Positions 22,839 to 30,585 of a stretch of 33,786 bases of DNA are shown one piece after another. Within the stretch, counting starts at the first letter, position 1, and each line of letters starts with the position of its first letter. Source of the stretch: Prescottella equi (GTDB lineage Bacteria; Actinomycetota; Actinomycetes; Mycobacteriales; Mycobacteriaceae); contig NZ_LWTX01000017.1 in NCBI RefSeq assembly GCF_002094305.1, forward strand, positions 1 through 33,786, written 5' to 3'. The notes beneath the pieces were generated by a model, which had not been told where the DNA came from, did no database searches, and worked only from the letters and a program-made list of their open reading frames with translations. Position numbers and translations under genes: made by a program.

Positions 22839-24185
22839 TCAGTGCGCCCTGCCCTCGATTCCCGAATCCTCGAAGCCGCCCAGCGCATCGATCTCGACGC
22901 TGCCGATCACTGCGGGCGCGACCATCGGCAGCTCGCCGACCACTTCGTCGCCCGGTACGGCGGCGGCCAGGTAGCCGGCGTTCCCCCGGTGGACCGTGTC
23001 GTCGTACGCCCCGCGCGGTTGCGCTCCCGTGCCGGTCGGGGCGTAGCCGGGTGCCGGGGTGCCGGCACCGGACGTGCGGGTCCCACCCTCGGCGTACGGG
23101 GTGGTCGCAGTAGTGGCCACGGAGGGTTGCGCGGCCGACGGGCCGCGCCCGGTCGATCCGGCCCAGGTCCCCGCGCTCCCCGCGACGAAGCCGGGGACGA
23201 ATCCGCCACCGGCGCCACCGGATCCGCCGGCCCCGCCGAACGACGCTGCGGTAGGAGCGAATTCGCGGGTGGACACGGGTGCCATGCTCGCGGCGTGCGT
23301 CTGTGGCGGAAGCGCGTCACCGTACTGCGGCGACGAGTCGGCGAGCGACCTGCCCACGGACTCGAGCACCGACCCCGCGACCGCGACGGGCGACTGTCCG
23401 CCCGCAGCGAGGAGACCGGCCGCCGGCGCGGGAGCCGCGGGAACGGGGATCTCGGCGCCCAGCGCAGCCATCGCGGACTGGTGGCCGGCGAGTTCGGCGC
23501 GAGTCGCGGCGACCACCGACAGCGCGCGTTGCAGGTGGTCGGCGGCCGCGGCCAACAGCATCGTCTGACCCGGGGGAGTGAGCGCGACCGGAGCGGCTGC
23601 CACGGCGGTCGCTGCGAACGATTCGGCGACCGCGACGAGTTGCGCATTGCCGCGCGAGACCGTTGCCGCGGCGTCCTGGGTGACGGACGCGATGGCATTG
23701 CCGCGTTCGCTGAGTTGTTCTCCGGTGATTCGGACCTGCTCGCCCTGCGACTGCGCCGCCAGGGCCGCGGAGCCGTCCCAGGCACCGTCCAGAGCGCGCA
23801 GCCCCGAGACCCCCATCGACAGCGCGGTGTCGATGACCGACGACGACTGGCGCAGCAACGCGGTGGGGTCGAATCCGCCGAACGCGCCCGTCCCGAAGGC
23901 GCTCGCGAGATCGGCCACGGGCTGCAGTAGTTGATCGATACCGGGCAGCGGCGGAAGGGGTGGCAGTTCGGGAAGAGGTGGCAGCGCCGGCGCCGGAGGA
24001 AGTGCCCCCGCGGCGATGTCGACGAACGGCGTGTTCAGCGCCGGACCGAGCGGGGAGGCTGCGAGCGCCTCCATCGGTGTCCGGGGAACCGGCATGTCCA
24101 GGACCGGCCCGACGGGGGACGCCTGCAACAGATCCAGCACGGTCGGCTGCGCGGTGCCTGCGGTCGGTTCGGGTGTCGTCGTCAT
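22839..24185 (-). CDS. Large WxG-motif protein, probable EspA-like type VII secretion substrate
   Basis: The 448-aa product has a Pro-rich N-terminus with an internal repeat (ASPVGPVLDMP at 22-32 and ASPLGPALNTP at 43-53), then the PPLPELPPLPPLPG run (69-82). A helical region (about 105-250) carries a W-x-G turn at 136-138 (DGAWDGSAALAAQ). The C-terminal part (about 290-420) is Gly/Ala/Thr-rich and probably disordered. There is no signal peptide or TM. The WxG turn between helices is the hallmark of type VII (ESX) substrates, and its partner next door has the matching YxxxD motif. An EspA/EspE-like effector is my inference. It overlaps the upstream small gene by 4 nt. Confidence 0.65.
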   Translation of the reverse strand: MTTTPEPTAGTAQPTVLDLLQASPVGPVLDMPVPRTPMEALAASPLGPALNTPFVDIAAGALPPAPALPPLPELPPLPPLPGIDQLLQPVADLASAFGTGAFGGFDPTALLRQSSSVIDTALSMGVSGLRALDGAWDGSAALAAQSQGEQVRITGEQLSERGNAIASVTQDAAATVSRGNAQLVAVAESFAATAVAAAPVALTPPGQTMLLAAAADHLQRALSVVAATRAELAGHQSAMAALGAEIPVPAAPAPAAGLLAAGGQSPVAVAGSVLESVGRSLADSSPQYGDALPPQTHAASMAPVSTREFAPTAASFGGAGGSGGAGGGFVPGFVAGSAGTWAGSTGRGPSAAQPSVATTATTPYAEGGTRTSGAGTPAPGYAPTGTGAQPRGAYDDTVHRGNAGYLAAAVPGDEVVGELPMVAPAVIGSVEIDALGGFEDSGIEGRAH

Positions 24186-24511
24186 GCGTTGCCTCCCAGG
24201 GCGCTGCGCGCGTCACCGAGGACGCGTCCGGTGGCGTGATCGGTGGCGTCGTATGCGGCGGCGACCGCGTGCGCGACCGCCCCGGTGCCGGCGTAGTGGT
24301 TCGCGAGCGCGGCGACGGACCGTGCGTGCGCGGTCTGAGTGGCCGCGAACGTTGCCACGAAATCGGCGCCTATCGCGCCGAACACCGGTGTCAGTGCAGC
24401 GACGTTCGCGGCCAGGTCCAACCCACCCGCCGTCGCGATGTGAGTCGCGGCCCCCGCCGCGACGTCGCCGTACACCCGAATCTCATCGGGCGCAGCAGAA
24501 AACCCGTCCAT
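24182..24511 (-). CDS. EspC-like small type VII secretion protein
   Basis: This 109-aa, almost wholly helical, Ala-rich protein starts MDGFSAAPDEIRVYGDVAAG and has a central turn around GAIGADFVATFAAT. It resembles the ESX-associated EspC family in length, N-terminal pattern and charge. At 87-91 it shows Y-D-A-T-D, the YxxxD/E secretion signal of ESX substrates, after the second helix. It overlaps the large WxG protein by ATGA, so the two are made together, as with EspC/EspA. A TACAGT -10 candidate on the minus strand (24542-24547) lies upstream, but co-transcription from the TetR gene 63 bp away is also possible. The ATG at 24511 is preferred over one 30 bp upstream because of the purine-rich GGGGGG before it. 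Confidence 0.7.
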   Translation of the reverse strand: MDGFSAAPDEIRVYGDVAAGAATHIATAGGLDLAANVAALTPVFGAIGADFVATFAATQTAHARSVAALANHYAGTGAVAHAVAAAYDATDHATGRVLGDARSALGGNA

Positions 24512-24574
24512 GATGACCCCCCATTGGTCGACTCGGCACACACTGTAACCGACCGTCCGGCCCGCAGTCGTCCC

Positions 24575-25282
24575 TCATCGCTCAGGCTGTGGACAACTTT
24601 TCGCGAGCCGGTCGAGAACGCCTCGGGCGTGGTGTGCGATCTCGGTGGTGGGACCGAATCGCCCCAGCACGCGCAGGACTGCGTCCGCCACGAGCTCGGG
24701 CGGAAGTCCCGGCGCCGGCGAGCCGGAGTGGTCGACGGCGGCGTCCGAGCGGGCGTTGATGGTGGCCTCCACCAGGCGGAACGGCAGCGCGGCGGCGGCT
24801 CGTCCGACGTTCGGATCACCGATGGTCGCCAGGGCCTCGCCCGCAAAATCGGCGTACTGCTCCATGAGTTCACCACGCAGAGAACGGAATTCGGTGAACC
24901 GATCCGTCGTCACCTCGGGCAATAGATACAAGGCGCCGAGGTTCCAGCGTGACTCTGCGAGTTGGGCGGTGTCGAAGAGTGTGAGCGCGTAGAGGCGGAC
25001 GACGGGATCCGGGCAGTTCCTTCGCAACATCTCGGCGCACGCGAGGGGTCCCGCGACCGTGTCCAGGAGCAGCGCGGCGAGGATGTCGTCCTTGGTGGCG
25101 AAGTGGTGGTACATCGACGCCTGCCGGATTCCGACGGCGTCGGCGATCATCCGCGTCGACGTTCCGGTGAATCCGCGCGTGGTGAACAGTTCGGCCGCGG
25201 CGTCGAGAATCTCCTCGCGTGCGGTCGCACCCGGCCGTGTGCGGGTCTTCAGTCGTGGCCGTCCGGCACCCGTCGTCGTCAT
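24575..25282 (-). CDS. TetR family transcriptional regulator
   Basis: This 235-aa one-component repressor has the classic N-terminal helix-turn-helix: REEILDAAAELFTTRGFTGTS, then MIADAVGIRQASMYHHFATKDDIL (45-68). The ligand domain begins around 75 and has no recognisable signature. It is divergent from the permease operon across 243 bp, a common layout for local control. It is also the first gene upstream of the EspC/EspA-like pair, so which set it controls is open. The ATG at 25282 is set by the minus-strand GGATGAGGAC just before it and by the TetR domain start. Confidence 0.92.
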   Translation of the reverse strand: MTTTGAGRPRLKTRTRPGATAREEILDAAAELFTTRGFTGTSTRMIADAVGIRQASMYHHFATKDDILAALLLDTVAGPLACAEMLRRNCPDPVVRLYALTLFDTAQLAESRWNLGALYLLPEVTTDRFTEFRSLRGELMEQYADFAGEALATIGDPNVGRAAAALPFRLVEATINARSDAAVDHSGSPAPGLPPELVADAVLRVLGRFGPTTEIAHHARGVLDRLAKSCPQPER

Positions 25283-25525
25283 GTCCTCATCCTTACAGGA
25301 AAGTGCTGCACCGTGTTTCGTCGTCCTGACCTGTGATTGTGAGGGCTCGGACACCGTCCCGTAACCGGGGACACGCGTCCGCAACGGAAATCGCCGATCG
25401 CGACCCACGATCGCAACCTGCGCGACATCGTGCGCGTCGTTGCGGCCCGAAAACTGTCGAGTGACAGAAACCAGTGCCCGGGCCTCCCGGGCCGGTGACG
25501 CTTTCCGCCTCTCGTAGGAGGGTTC
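25283..25525. promoter_or_regulatory. Divergent control region between TetR and permease operon
   Basis: The 243-bp gap contains several symmetric elements. TCCTTACAGGA (25290-25300) overlaps the TetR ribosome binding site region. GTCCC-N7-GGGAC lies at 25356-25372. CGCAAC (25412-25417) and GTTGCG (25439-25444) are inverted, 21 bp apart. CTGTC-GAGT-GACAG (25454-25467) and GCCCGG-N5-CCGGGC (25476-25492) are hairpin-like elements near the start of the operon. The permease ribosome binding site AGGAGGG is close to its ATG. No guanidine riboswitch consensus (ykkC type or paired ACGR loops) could be recognised. Which element is the TetR operator cannot be decided by eye. Confidence 0.35.
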
Positions 25526-27061
25526 ATGACAGCCACCGTGACGACAGCGTCGAGCGACCGGGGCGACCTGGCCGAGTTCGGCTACGAGCAGCAGTTGCAC
25601 CGCTCGCTCGGCAAGTTCGGGTCCTTCGCGGCCGGCTTCTCGTTCGTCTCGATCCTCACGACGATCTTCCAGCTGTTCGGGTTGGGTTTCGGCTTCGCCG
25701 GGCCGGCCTTCTTCTGGACCTGGCCCGTCGTCTTCCTCGGGCAGTTCATGGTCGCGCTGTGTTTCGCCGAAATGGCGGCGCGCTACCCGATCTCCGGCGC
25801 GATCTACCAGTGGGCCCGGCGCCTCGGCGGCGCGATCGTCGGCTGGTTCGCGGGCTGGTTCATGATCATCGCGCAGATCGTCACCGCGGCCGCCGCCGCG
25901 ATCGCGCTGCAGGTGGTGCTGCCGTCGATCTGGAGCGGCTTCCAGGTGATCGGTGACGATCCCGCTCTCACCTCGCCGGACGGCGCTGCCAACGCGGTAC
26001 TGCTGGGGTCGATTCTCCTGGTGCTCACGACCACGATCAACTGCATCGGCGTGAACTGGATGTCGCGGATCAACAGCATCGGCGTGACCTGCGAGATCGT
26101 CGGAGTGATCGCCGTGATCGGCATGTTCTTCACCCACGCCCAGCGGGGCCCGGACGTGGTGTTCGACACCGGCGTCGCCGGCTCTCAGCCCGGGTACATC
26201 TGGGCGTGGATCGTGTCGGGCCTGATGGCCGCGTACGTCATGGTCGGCTTCGGTTCCGCGGGTGAACTCGCCGAGGAGACGCACAACCCGCGTCGGGTCG
26301 CGCCGCGCACGATCCGCCTCGCGCTGTCGGTCTCGGCGCTCGGCGGTGGCCTGATGATCGTCGGTGCGCTGATGGCCGCGCCGAGCCTCACCGACGGTCG
26401 CCTGGCCACCGAGGGCCTGCCCTACGTGCTGACGTCGATCCTGAGTTCGCCGTGGGGGACCGTGCTACTGGTGGACGTCGCGATCGCGGTGTTCGTGTGC
26501 ACCCTCGCGATCCAGACCGCGGCGTCGCGGCTGATGTTCGGGATGGCTCGCGACGGCAAACTGCCGGCCAGCGAGGTGCTCGCCAAGGTCAACCCCCGCA
26601 CCGGAACCCCGATTGCACCGAGCGTCCTGATCGGCGTGTTGTGCATCGCCGTGCTGGCCGTGAACGTCGGCAACTCCGCGATCTTCGCGACGCTCTCGAG
26701 TGTGTGCATCGTGCTCATCTATCTCGCATACCTCATGGTCACCGTGCCCATGCTCGTGCGGCGCCTGTCCGGTCGCTCGCTCGGCGGTCCCGATGTGGAC
26801 GCCGACGGCCGAAAGCTGTTCTCGCTGGGCGTGTTCGCGATTCCCGTCAACATCGCTGCCGTTGCCTACGGCGCCCTCATGGTCGTCAACCTGTCCTGGC
26901 CCCGCGCCGAGATCTTCAACCCCACGGGGGAGTACGCGGTCCTGCAGTGGGCCGCCCCCCTCGCGGTGCTCGCCGTCGTGATCGTGGGCGCCGCCTGCTA
27001 TTCGTCCCGCGGCACCGCGCGCAGCGACCGCATCCCGACCCCCGTCACGATCGGAGCCTGA
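25526..27061 (+). CDS. APC-family permease, urea-carboxylase-associated type
   Basis: This 511-aa membrane protein has about 12 TM segments and belongs to the amino acid/polyamine/organocation (APC) superfamily. It shows the first-helix region FAAGFSFVSILTTIFQLFGLGFG (34-56), MAARYPISGAIYQWARRLGG (86-105) and GSAGELAEETHNPRRVAPRT (244-263). Such permeases accompany urea-carboxylase-associated proteins, which suggests import of a small nitrogen compound such as guanidine, a guanidino compound or an amine; the substrate is inferred only. A strong AGGAGGG precedes the ATG. The next gene starts 1 nt after its stop, so it leads a four-gene operon. Confidence 0.88.
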   Translation: MTATVTTASSDRGDLAEFGYEQQLHRSLGKFGSFAAGFSFVSILTTIFQLFGLGFGFAGPAFFWTWPVVFLGQFMVALCFAEMAARYPISGAIYQWARRLGGAIVGWFAGWFMIIAQIVTAAAAAIALQVVLPSIWSGFQVIGDDPALTSPDGAANAVLLGSILLVLTTTINCIGVNWMSRINSIGVTCEIVGVIAVIGMFFTHAQRGPDVVFDTGVAGSQPGYIWAWIVSGLMAAYVMVGFGSAGELAEETHNPRRVAPRTIRLALSVSALGGGLMIVGALMAAPSLTDGRLATEGLPYVLTSILSSPWGTVLLVDVAIAVFVCTLAIQTAASRLMFGMARDGKLPASEVLAKVNPRTGTPIAPSVLIGVLCIAVLAVNVGNSAIFATLSSVCIVLIYLAYLMVTVPMLVRRLSGRSLGGPDVDADGRKLFSLGVFAIPVNIAAVAYGALMVVNLSWPRAEIFNPTGEYAVLQWAAPLAVLAVVIVGAACYSSRGTARSDRIPTPVTIGA

Positions 27062-27062
27062 A

Positions 27063-27941
27063 GTGACCGTCCCCGACCTCGTCGAACACTCCGACGACAC
27101 CTCCACCACCGCCACCGCTCGCGCACATGCCCGAGCCCAGGCCGGTACGCGCACCGACGCGATGCCGGTAGTGCCCGCCGCCGACTGGCCGACACCTCCG
27201 GAGGGCGTCGCCGCCGAACGCCTCGTGTGGGCCGAAACCGTTCCCGGCGGCCGGTACGCGTCCAAGGTGCTCGCCCGGGGCACCCGCATCCGGCTACGGG
27301 ATCTCGAGGGCGACGCCTGCGCCAACGTGCTGCTCTTCCGGGCCGACGCCCCCTGGGAGCGGCTCAACGTGGCCGACACCGTCAAGGTGCCGTGGCAGGC
27401 GTACCTCGGCCCCGGGCACCCGTTGCTCTCCGATGCCGGCCGCGTCCTCGCCACCGTCGTCGCCGACACGTCCGGACACCACGACGCACTGTGCGGCACC
27501 ACCAGTGCCGCCGCGAATCGGGCGCGATACGGCAACGGGGCCCTGCACTCGCCGACGCCCGCCGGGCGGGAGTTGTTCACCGTCGCCGCAGCCAAGCACG
27601 ACCTCGCCCCCCGGGACCTGCCGCCGTCGCTGTCCTTCTTCCACGGCATCCGGGTCGACACCGACGGGGCCCTCGTCAGTACGGGTACCGCCGGTGCCGG
27701 GGCGTACGTCGACCTGCTGCTCCATCTGCCGGTGATCGTGTTGGTCGCGAACACCGCGCACCCGCTCGATCCGGCGCCGGAGTTCCGCACCACCTCGCTC
27801 GAACTCCTCGCCTGGACGGCAGCCGAGGAACTCGACGTCCTCCGCAACGACGATCCCGAATACCGGCGCGCCGTCGCCAACACCGAGGACGCCTGGACTG
27901 CGCTGCACGGCGCGGCGCCGCTCGAAGGAAAGGACGCATGA
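27063..27941 (+). CDS. DUF1989 urea-carboxylase-associated protein, longer subunit (carboxyguanidine deiminase-like)
   Basis: This 292-aa protein contains a DUF1989 domain from about 58: ETVPGGRYASKVLARGTRIRLRDLEGDACANVLLF, SGHHDALCGTT (139-149) and SFFHGIRVDTDG (190-201). It matches the longer of the two urea-carboxylase-associated proteins. Biochemical work on such pairs showed that they form a carboxyguanidine deiminase, turning carboxyguanidine to allophanate and ammonia in guanidine use. The first 50 or so residues are an unusual Thr/Ala/Arg-rich extension that may partly be untranslated if a later start is used. The GTG at 27063 lies 1 nt after the permease stop. Its 3' end overlaps the next gene by ATGA. 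Confidence 0.85.
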   Translation: MTVPDLVEHSDDTSTTATARAHARAQAGTRTDAMPVVPAADWPTPPEGVAAERLVWAETVPGGRYASKVLARGTRIRLRDLEGDACANVLLFRADAPWERLNVADTVKVPWQAYLGPGHPLLSDAGRVLATVVADTSGHHDALCGTTSAAANRARYGNGALHSPTPAGRELFTVAAAKHDLAPRDLPPSLSFFHGIRVDTDGALVSTGTAGAGAYVDLLLHLPVIVLVANTAHPLDPAPEFRTTSLELLAWTAAEELDVLRNDDPEYRRAVANTEDAWTALHGAAPLEGKDA

Positions 27942-28603
27942 TGACCACCCTGCTCCCCGCCGCCGACCTGGCGCTCGTCCCGGGCGAGATCGTTCTCGAC
28001 GACACCGTGGCACCCCGCGGCCCGTGGTCCGCCGTCGTGGCCGCCGGCGACGTCCTGACCATCGTCGACCTGCACGGCAACCAGGCGGTCGACACGCTCA
28101 TCTACGCGGCGGGCGATCACTCCCGCCGCTATTCGGCGGCCGCTACGGTCGTCGGGCAGCACAACCTGTTCCTCACCACCGGCAGCGTGCTGCGCTCGGA
28201 CGACGCGAGCCCGCTCATGACGATCGTCGCCGACGAGGTCGGCAACCACGACACGGTCGGCGGTGCCTGCTCACAGGAGTCGAACACGCTGCGCTACGGC
28301 CACCACACCAAGCACCAGCACGCGTGCGTCGAGAACTTCCTCGTCGAGGGCGCCCGCTGGGGTCTCGGTAAGCGCGACCTGGTCTCGAACATCAACTTCT
28401 TCATGAACGTGCCGGTCGATCCCGACGGTGCCCTGGGCATCGTCGACGGCCTCTCGGCTCCGGGCAAGCGCCTTGCGCTCCGTGCCGACGTCGACGCGTT
28501 GGTACTGGTGTCGAACTGTCCGCAGATCAACAACCCGTGCAACGGCTTCGATCCCACTGCCGTCCGCATGATCGTCACTCGCCCCCGGGAGGTGCAGCCA
28601 TGA
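27938..28603 (+). CDS. DUF1989 urea-carboxylase-associated protein, shorter subunit (carboxyguanidine deiminase-like)
   Basis: This 221-aa partner is the shorter DUF1989 protein: [91 protein letters not shown] and a Cys-containing tail, [21 protein letters not shown]. The conserved His and Cys residues are suited to binding a metal. It pairs with the preceding gene as the second subunit of a probable carboxyguanidine deiminase. There are two adjacent ATGs (27938 and 27941), the first overlapping the upstream stop. It overlaps the carboxyltransferase gene by 4 nt (ATGA, 28600-28603). It is much better conserved than the longer subunit. Confidence 0.88.
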
Positions 28604-30585
28604 CCGCCAAGTGCACGGTGCTCCGGCCGGGAATGGGCACCACCGTCCAGGACTATCCCGGTCGGACCGGCTACTGGCAGATCGGGGTACCCCCGTCGGG
28701 CCCGATGGACGACCTGTCCTTCCGTCTCGGCAACGTCGCAGTCGGAAACGCCGAGGGTGCGGCGGGATTCGAAGCCGTCATGGCCGGGCCCGCGCTGCGG
28801 TTCGACGAGCCGACGTACGTATGTGTCACCGGTGCGCCGACCACCGTCACCGTGGACGGTGCCGTGGTCCCGCAGTGGCGGCCGGTGCGGGTGCCGGCCG
28901 GGGGAGTGCTCGACGTCGGGGCCGTGTCCGGCCCCGGGCTTCGCGTCTACGTCCTGGTCGCGGGCGGCATCGATGTTCCCGAATTCCTCGGTAGCGCATC
29001 GACGTTCACCCTCGGCCGTTTCGGTGGACTCGACGGCCGAACCTTGCGCGAGGGCGATGTATTGGCCCTCGGCGACACGCCGACGTCCGCACCCACTGCG
29101 GTCCCGGCCGGTTCCGTTCCGGCCCTGTCGCAGCGCTGGGAGCTCGCAGTGACCGAGGGACCCCACGGCGCCCCGGAGTTCTTCACCCGCGCCGACATCG
29201 ACGCGCTGTATCGCACCGACTACGAGGTGCACTTCAACTCCGACCGAACCGGGGTGCGCTTGATCGGCCCGCGGCCCGACTGGGCCCGTCCGGACGGCGG
29301 CGAGGCCGGGTTGCACCCGTCGAACATCCACGACAACGCCTATTCGATCGGTGCTCTGGACTTCACCGGGGACACACCGATCCTGCTCGGCCCCGACGGG
29401 CCCAGTCTCGGCGGATTCGTCTGCCCGGTCACGGTGGTCGCGGCCGACCGGTGGAAACTCGGGCAGCTCGCGCCGGGCAACACGGTGCGATTCGTTCCGG
29501 TCCGCGCCGATCGAGCGGCGTCGCGGCGGGACCTCGGTCTCGGACGCCGAGCCGGACTGCCGGCGGTGCTGTCGGCGGGAGGCGACGGCGACGACGGTGT
29601 GCTCGCCAGGCGGGACGGCGACACCGCCGTCACGTATCGCCGATCGGGCGACGACAACGTGCTCGTCGAATACGGCGACATGACGCTCGACCTGGCGCTG
29701 CGGGCGCGGGTGCACGCGCTGCACCAGCGGCTCGAGACCGAACGGCCGGCCGGCCTGCTCGACCTGACGCCCGGCATCCGGTCGCTGCAGGTGCGGGTGG
29801 ACCCGGACGTCCTGCCGGTTCCGAGGCTGCTCGGCCTGTTGGCCGAGGCCGAGGACCAGCTCCCCGCCGCGAACGAGTTGGTCGTTCCCAGCCGAACCGT
29901 GCGGATGCCGCTGTCGTGGGACGACCCGGCGACCCGCGAGGCGATCGCGCGCTACATGCGCGGGGTGCGCGCGGACGCGCCGTGGTGCCCGTGGAACATC
30001 GAGTTCATCCGCCGCATGAACGGACTCGACTCGGTGAACGACGTGTTCGACACCGTGTTCGGGGCCGACTATCTCGTCCTGGGCCTCGGCGACGTGTATC
30101 TGGGAGCGCCGGTCGCGACGCCGCTCGATCCGCGGCACCGGCTGGTCACCACCAAGTACAACCCGGCCCGCACCTGGACGCCGGAGAACGCGGTGGGCAT
30201 CGGCGGTGCGTACCTGTGCATCTACGGGATGGAGGGGCCGGGCGGCTACCAGTTCGTCGGCCGCACCACGCAGGTGTGGAACCACCGGCACCCGCAGTCG
30301 TCGGGTCCGTTCGAGGACGGCACGCCGTGGCTGCTGCGCTTCTTCGACCGGATCTCCTGGTATCCGGTGGAACCCGACGAGTTGCTCGATCTGCGAGCCG
30401 ATCTCGCGGCCGGACGAGGAGCCGGGGGGATCGAGATCGCCGACGGTCGGTTCTCGTTGGCCGAGCACGAGCAGTTCCTCACCGACAACGCGGACTCGAT
30501 CGCGGCGTTCCGGGCGAGCCAGGCGGTCGCGTTCGCCGACGAGCGACGCCGGTGGGCCGATGCCGGCGAGTTCGCCCGCGTCTGA
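28600..30585 (+). CDS. Stand-alone carboxyltransferase of urea/guanidine carboxylase type (AHS2-AHS1 fusion), lacking biotin domains
   Basis: The 661-aa protein contains only the carboxyltransferase half of urea amidolyase-type enzymes. The KipA/AHS2 domain covers about 1-305 ([20 protein letters not shown] from 15, [10 protein letters not shown] at 271-280). The KipI/AHS1 domain covers about 345-600 ([63 protein letters not shown]). A helical tail follows (622-661). Urea carboxylase is normally about 1200 aa, with an ATP-grasp biotin carboxylase before and a biotinyl carrier after this region. Here neither an ATP-grasp domain nor an MKM biotin site exists. It may use a biotin carboxylase encoded elsewhere, or act like the PxpBC part of 5-oxoprolinase. 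It is the last gene of the permease operon and starts with an ATGA overlap. Confidence 0.87.

Follow-up and report, generated by a model that had tools for sequence, protein, structure and literature searches.

A guanidine carboxylase variant of mycobacterial relatives that retains only the carboxyltransferase and probably borrows its biotin half

In the known urea and guanidine carboxylases, one polypeptide combines a biotin carboxylase (BC), a carboxyltransferase (CT) and a biotin carrier (BCCP). Here we describe from Prescottella equi a variant of guanidine carboxylase that is new, is widespread in one bacterial family and consists of the CT part alone. On balance we judge it likely that this protein serves as a guanidine carboxylase subunit and receives carboxybiotin in trans from an alpha subunit shared with acyl-CoA carboxylases, most likely AccA3. 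No report of a guanidine or urea carboxylase without BC was found in the portions of the literature searched, which covered few subscription papers. The CT gene lies in an operon with genes for an AmtR regulator, a permease and a presumed carboxyguanidine-deiminase pair, within a window (the whole stretch of DNA analysed, 33,786 bases) that is the entire contig C17 of a 5.2 Mb genome. The features of this region are:

24575..25282, minus strand: TetR regulator of the AmtR type, oriented divergently to the permease gene (best PDB match 5e57, AmtR, E 2.6e-56)
25350..25385, plus strand: two GlnR-like sites beginning 20 bp from each other in the promoter region of the permease gene (site search; weak, suggestive)
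25526..27061, plus strand: APC permease of the urea-carboxylase system (profile TIGR03428), presumed guanidine importer
27063..27941, plus strand: UAAP1 (DUF1989, by profile), presumed carboxyguanidine deiminase subunit; ATGA overlap with UAAP2
27938..28603, plus strand: UAAP2 (DUF1989, by profile), the other presumed carboxyguanidine deiminase subunit; ATGA overlap with the CT gene
28600..30585, plus strand: putative carboxyltransferase-only guanidine carboxylase subunit (CT_A_B and CT_C_D), 661 aa (domain and family profiles, alignment)
29359..29361, plus strand: Asp254 codon, equivalent by alignment to K. lactis position 1330 (Asp in guanidine, Asn in urea enzymes)
30091..30093, plus strand: Asp498 codon, equivalent by alignment to K. 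lactis Asp1584, a conserved residue
30623..32218, plus strand: MFS transporter adjoining the CT gene, start codon uncertain, putative member of the system (frame and profile reading)

Domain content, specificity residues and operon

In the 661-aa protein, domain profiles match residues 28-300 (CT_A_B) and 345-565 (CT_C_D), both with scores far above the cut-off, and the CT part is complete. Together with the family profile TIGR02712, these matches bear out the initial annotation, which had read the chain as AHS2 and AHS1 domains only, in urea-carboxylase order. TIGR02712 aligns residues 5-658 with profile positions 449-1112 of 1201 at a score of 962.6, below the cut-off of 1303.85. Because the match spans only these positions, an N-terminal BC (positions 1-448 unmatched) and a C-terminal BCCP with its biotinyl lysine (positions 1113-1201 unmatched) are missing from the protein; the reading frame is unbroken and stops directly after the CT part. 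Genome-wide profile searches with Biotin_carb_C and Biotin_lipoyl gave zero matches on contig C17, in agreement with the earlier statement that the window holds neither a BC nor a biotin carrier, and BC genes were found elsewhere in the genome. The window also lacks an allophanate hydrolase (AtzF), as had been stated, and the genome-wide search located one, with a score above the cut-off, at an unlinked site (C8:201301-202929). By eye, this unlinked gene stands beside an apparent ABC transporter and a GntR-like regulator (region L028 4543-8211, C8).

Alignment with the K. lactis urea amidolyase reveals aspartic acid at the equivalents of both position 1330 and position 1584 of the CT protein. 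In the accessible text of Palatinszky et al. (PMC11410670), the aspartic acid at 1584 is required, aspartic acid at 1330 separates guanidine from urea carboxylase, and carboxyguanidine deiminases are defined within PF09347 (DUF1989). Across 161 distinct aligned sequences (170 rows less copies; 96 CT-only and 65 full-length), both diagnostic residues occur in 96 of 96 CT-only and 53 of 65 full-length sequences, and the remaining 12 carry asparagine at the first position and are of the urea type. Given the aspartic acids and the DUF1989 pair, which was identified as UAAP1 and UAAP2 by profile match and not by CgdA/CgdB tree placement, the operon most likely serves guanidine rather than urea. At the same specificity position, the PxpC of the P. 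equi genome itself has glutamine, and two CT-only genes of a distant group (about 50% identical, same operon type; L259 7524-9512 in G480 and L260 223-2232, minus strand, in G054) have methionine, neither aspartic acid nor asparagine.

The initial annotation had described the permease and both DUF1989 partners as coupled by 4-nt overlaps. All three genes are present and ATGA overlaps join UAAP1 to UAAP2 and UAAP2 to the CT gene, but the permease and UAAP1 genes lie 1 nt apart with no overlap. Three GlnR-like sites occur in the window against 1.34 expected, a number that is not significant. Guanidine riboswitches are common in guanidine carboxylase operons and not strictly defining; no Rfam match reached the gathering score in the window or in L004, L094, L097, L101 and L105. 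On the 3′ side of the CT gene, an MFS transporter is found in the window and in seven of the eight other genus loci read, at the position that allophanate hydrolase takes in many other loci. At 22839-24541 of the window lie two alanine-rich frames that, from their look, we take to be possibly ESX-secretion-associated; kin of the longer frame occur near the operon in 11 CT-only versus 0 full-length loci, and a CBS-domain-like cluster in 14 CT-only versus 0 full-length loci. A replacement gene peculiar to CT-only loci was not borne out, the main neighbors (an AmtR-like TetR, the permease, UAAP1, UAAP2 and AtzF) being identical in both architectures.

Distribution, origin and signs of function

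The CT gene is unbroken, at 87-100% identity, in eight of 14 genomes of the genus (P. equi included) and lies in frame-shifted pieces in one further genome, G003. These intact copies rule out a sequencing break that split a normal full-length urea carboxylase, an artefact that the initial annotation had raised, and a split gene is also contradicted by CT-only loci, where no BC or BCCP fragment lies beside the operon. The CT-only architecture is confirmed as real and not an assembly artefact.

The CT protein has a match at E 1e-100 in 265 of the 401 family genomes. Among the family matches listed, best first, only three frames have full-length size (G397, G377 and G326), and 80 further matching family genomes that were looked at include both CT-only and full-length sizes. 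We classed 172 loci from sequence, the best-scoring ones rather than a random sample, and found 107 CT-only loci and 63 with BC and BCCP; L207, at a contig edge, is without BC, and L208 has BC and no recognised biotinyl motif. Removing copies and leaving out one short row reduced the 107 CT-only loci to 96 distinct sequences. A class-wide draw of 246 genomes gave 27 matches, and outside the family 17 of 18 are full-length-sized and one (G480) is CT-only. Compared across homologue neighborhoods, the design that had been taken for an undescribed variant is not peculiar to P. equi and is widespread in the family. Within a set of 52 CT-only loci (51 distinct), each with at least 4 kb on either side, UAAP1 and UAAP2 accompany the CT gene in all 52, the permease in 45 and AtzF in 27.

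Phylogenetic analysis of the CT part in a 78-row tree places the 46 CT-only rows on one side of one branch (SH-aLRT 99), and architecture requires one change on this tree, a count as low as which was reached in 0 of 500 shuffles. The CT-only clade (Rhodococcus, Nocardia, Gordonia, Williamsia and Mycobacterium kin) is nested among full-length guanidine carboxylases of genera that include Streptomyces, Actinoplanes and Microbacterium, with six full-length rows from the family or Mycobacterium (L105, L111, L162, L171, L233 and L236) outside it. This pattern fits a single loss of both BC and BCCP, then spread. With the two distant CT-only rows L259 and L260 added, the tree requires two changes, but the single-clade alternative is not rejected (p-AU 0.678).

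The 96 distinct CT-only sequences retain 195 of the 226 columns (86%) that are conserved throughout the full-length enzymes, compared to 204 of 231 (88%) and 223 of 238 (94%) in two held-out full-length control clades. An AlphaFold model of the CT protein has a mean pLDDT of 77.7, with values below 50 at residues 230-244, 267-272, 496-537 and 541-550, and it matches the structures of urea carboxylase and K. lactis urea amidolyase with a TM-score of 0.80 over the query. By sequence and model, the CT-only protein looks functional and not decaying. KipI/KipA proteins can act as regulators, and domain loss would suit either a regulator of that kind or a non-catalytic remnant; with the aspartic acid pair in all 96 distinct CT-only sequences of the alignment, good column retention and a deiminase pair alongside in all 52 loci, such a role seems to us very improbable.

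PxpBC comprises CT_A_B/CT_C_D proteins that function without BC and BCCP, and the initial annotation had set biotin-free chemistry of this kind beside biotin subunits supplied in trans. The CT protein scores 132.2 against a cut-off of 500 for PxpC and 31.4 against 145.55 for PxpB, both far too low, and the P. equi genome encodes a separate PxpC on C13 with a PxpA-like gene beside it, read by eye. Because of these low scores, the separate PxpC, the aspartic acid pair and the retention of full-length-enzyme columns nearly as in full-length clades, ATP-dependent, biotin-free chemistry on guanidine or another substrate is disfavored, and we consider it quite improbable; supply in trans fits better.

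Source of the biotin half

Adjacent BC and BCCP genes just outside the window, the other refutation named in the initial annotation, are not suggested by the gene order of relatives, in which none lies beside the operon. A BC gene occurs in one of the 52 CT-only loci (AccA1 at 8.6 kb, in G299); outside this set, AccA1 lies about 3.4 kb from the CT gene in G256, and a BC piece lies 9 kb away at a contig edge in L148. The G299 operon (L109 1-15722), which has AccA1 on one side and an HpcH/HpaI-like gene (by eye) on the other, appears as if inserted into a leucine-breakdown locus.

Since many mycobacterial relatives retain the CT-only form, the biotin half that it lacks is probably provided by shared fatty-acid carboxylase machinery. 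Under this proposal, the permease would import guanidine, and a biotinylated alpha subunit carrying BC and BCCP, most likely AccA3, would make carboxybiotin from ATP and bicarbonate and present it to the CT protein, which would carboxylate guanidine. UAAP1 and UAAP2 would then convert carboxyguanidine by deimination into allophanate, which the unlinked allophanate hydrolase on C8 would break down as the last step.

The BC genes of the P. equi genome are those of AccA1, an AccA2-like protein, AccA3, pyruvate carboxylase and urea carboxylase, where the three Acc names are our presumed assignments from neighbor genes and general background. The urea carboxylase, on C5 (L004 8209-11790), covers TIGR02712 positions 1-1200, passes the cut-off and has asparagine at the specificity position, as a urea-type enzyme; it exemplifies the single-chain form with BC, CT and BCCP. 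It lies downstream of transporter genes that by eye resemble urtABCDE. A full-length urea-type enzyme is present in all eight genus genomes with an intact CT-only gene, and this C5 protein could in principle lend its BC and BCCP in P. equi. However, many CT-only family genomes have a single match and therefore no full-length relative, and the BC genes found in G165 are limited to those of AccA1, AccA3 and pyruvate carboxylase; lending by the C5 enzyme is accordingly improbable.

Comparison of G165, where no AccA2-like gene was found, with G049, whose BC genes are AccA2-like, AccA3 and pyruvate carboxylase, leaves AccA3 as the sole BC-BCCP alpha subunit common to both. An AccA3 match is present in 47 of 48 genomes that are CT-only by frame size (a set that includes G284 on the size of its 1,028 frame alone), with P. 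equi, G165 and G049 among the 47. Since AccA3 is expected nearly throughout the family, finding it counts for little. In G020 (one contig, 99% complete), which has an intact CT-only gene, the searches found no AccA1 and no AccA3; the BC genes there are those of an AccA2-like alpha subunit and pyruvate carboxylase only, and the stretches read contain no masked bases. No single alpha subunit is therefore universal among CT-only genomes.

Supply in trans by AccA1, an MCC-type alpha subunit, or by any expressed alpha subunit rather than specifically by AccA3 would accommodate the AccA1-type alpha subunits found in 24 of 24 and 59 of 60 CT-only genomes (by frame size in the 60-genome set) and the short distances in G299 and G256. 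It would also suit the BC domains of full-length loci, which in best segments are nearer to AccA1 (46-56% identical) than to AccA3 (41-49%). Against it, G020 and G049 have no AccA1-grade match though their CT-only genes are intact, and AccA1 lies on another contig or at a distance in most genomes with listed coordinates. Because AccA1 also occurs in 16 of 20 genomes that have no CT gene, its presence is uninformative as a marker of CT-only genomes. We regard this version of trans supply as rather unlikely, and AccA3 most likely leads among the candidate alpha subunits for the predicted binding to the CT protein.

Comparison with known systems

If the clade lost BC and BCCP and retained CT, the enzyme would have become a further subunit of a shared carboxylase pool, and lipid synthesis would be predicted to show crosstalk with the use of guanidine. 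The 'urea amidolyase' annotation would also need correcting for this nitrogen operon in Rhodococcus, Nocardia and Mycobacterium kin. A more tentative proposal, which may well not hold, is that guanidine use runs on essential AccA3, which would charge both crotonase-type AccD and AHS-type CT subunits and so couple nitrogen scavenging to mycolic acid synthesis.

The P. equi CT is 63-75% identical to that of full-length guanidine-type loci and shares with bacterial guanidine carboxylase the same aspartic acid residues and operon partners, but it differs from that family (TIGR02712) in having neither BC nor BCCP, whether fused or adjacent, and in scoring below the family cut-off. M. smegmatis MSMEG_2184-2189 is an operon of the same kind (permease, two unknown frames, 'urea carboxylase/amidolyase' and amidase) that, in the accessible portions of earlier studies, is controlled by AmtR and GlnR (PMC4222082; PMC3662644; PMC4617892). 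MSMEG_2187 is annotated there as a urea amidolyase, and we liken it here by annotation; in the same portions, the operon is assigned to urea use with no mention of a missing BC or BCCP or of guanidine (PMC4222082; PMC3662644). The M. smegmatis strain did not grow on urea despite urease activity, which the authors left unexplained in the available text; assigning the operon to guanidine would not on its own account for this. For Rhodococcus jostii RHA1, PMC4222082 lists a permease gene, RHA1_ro06919, and a gene named 'urea carboxylase', RHA1_ro06922.

In the use of separate CT subunits with one common BC-BCCP alpha subunit, the proposed arrangement resembles mycobacterial acyl-CoA carboxylases (AccA3 with AccD4, AccD5 and AccD6). 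AccD proteins are crotonase-type CTs; unlike them, the P. equi CT is of the AHS1/AHS2 type and would act on a guanidino compound. According to the parts of the literature available, AccA3 assembles into enzymes with AccD4, AccD5 and AccD6 (PMC5407890) and serves several CT subunits (PMC5407890; PMC11001197).

PxpBC, KipI-KipA and the MSMEG_0435-MSMEG_0436 pair likewise combine CT_C_D and CT_A_B without BC, and over the CT_A_B part the P. equi CT is at most 35% identical to the MSMEG_0435 and YbgK chains. By its title, PDB entry 9YX5 shows MSMEG_0435-MSMEG_0436, a CT_A_B/CT_C_D pair, bound to the long-chain acyl-CoA carboxylase complex of M. smegmatis, and its chain records include AccA3. To judge from these records, 9YX5 is the best precedent for a CT of such fold meeting AccA3; the bound pair is of the PxpBC type, outside the CT-only clade, and may bind in the manner of a regulator. 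The reason for this binding may bear on all CT_A_B/CT_C_D proteins, and a shared carboxylase pool that admits AHS-type subunits would offer one possible reason for the presence of such a pair on a mycobacterial AccA3 complex.
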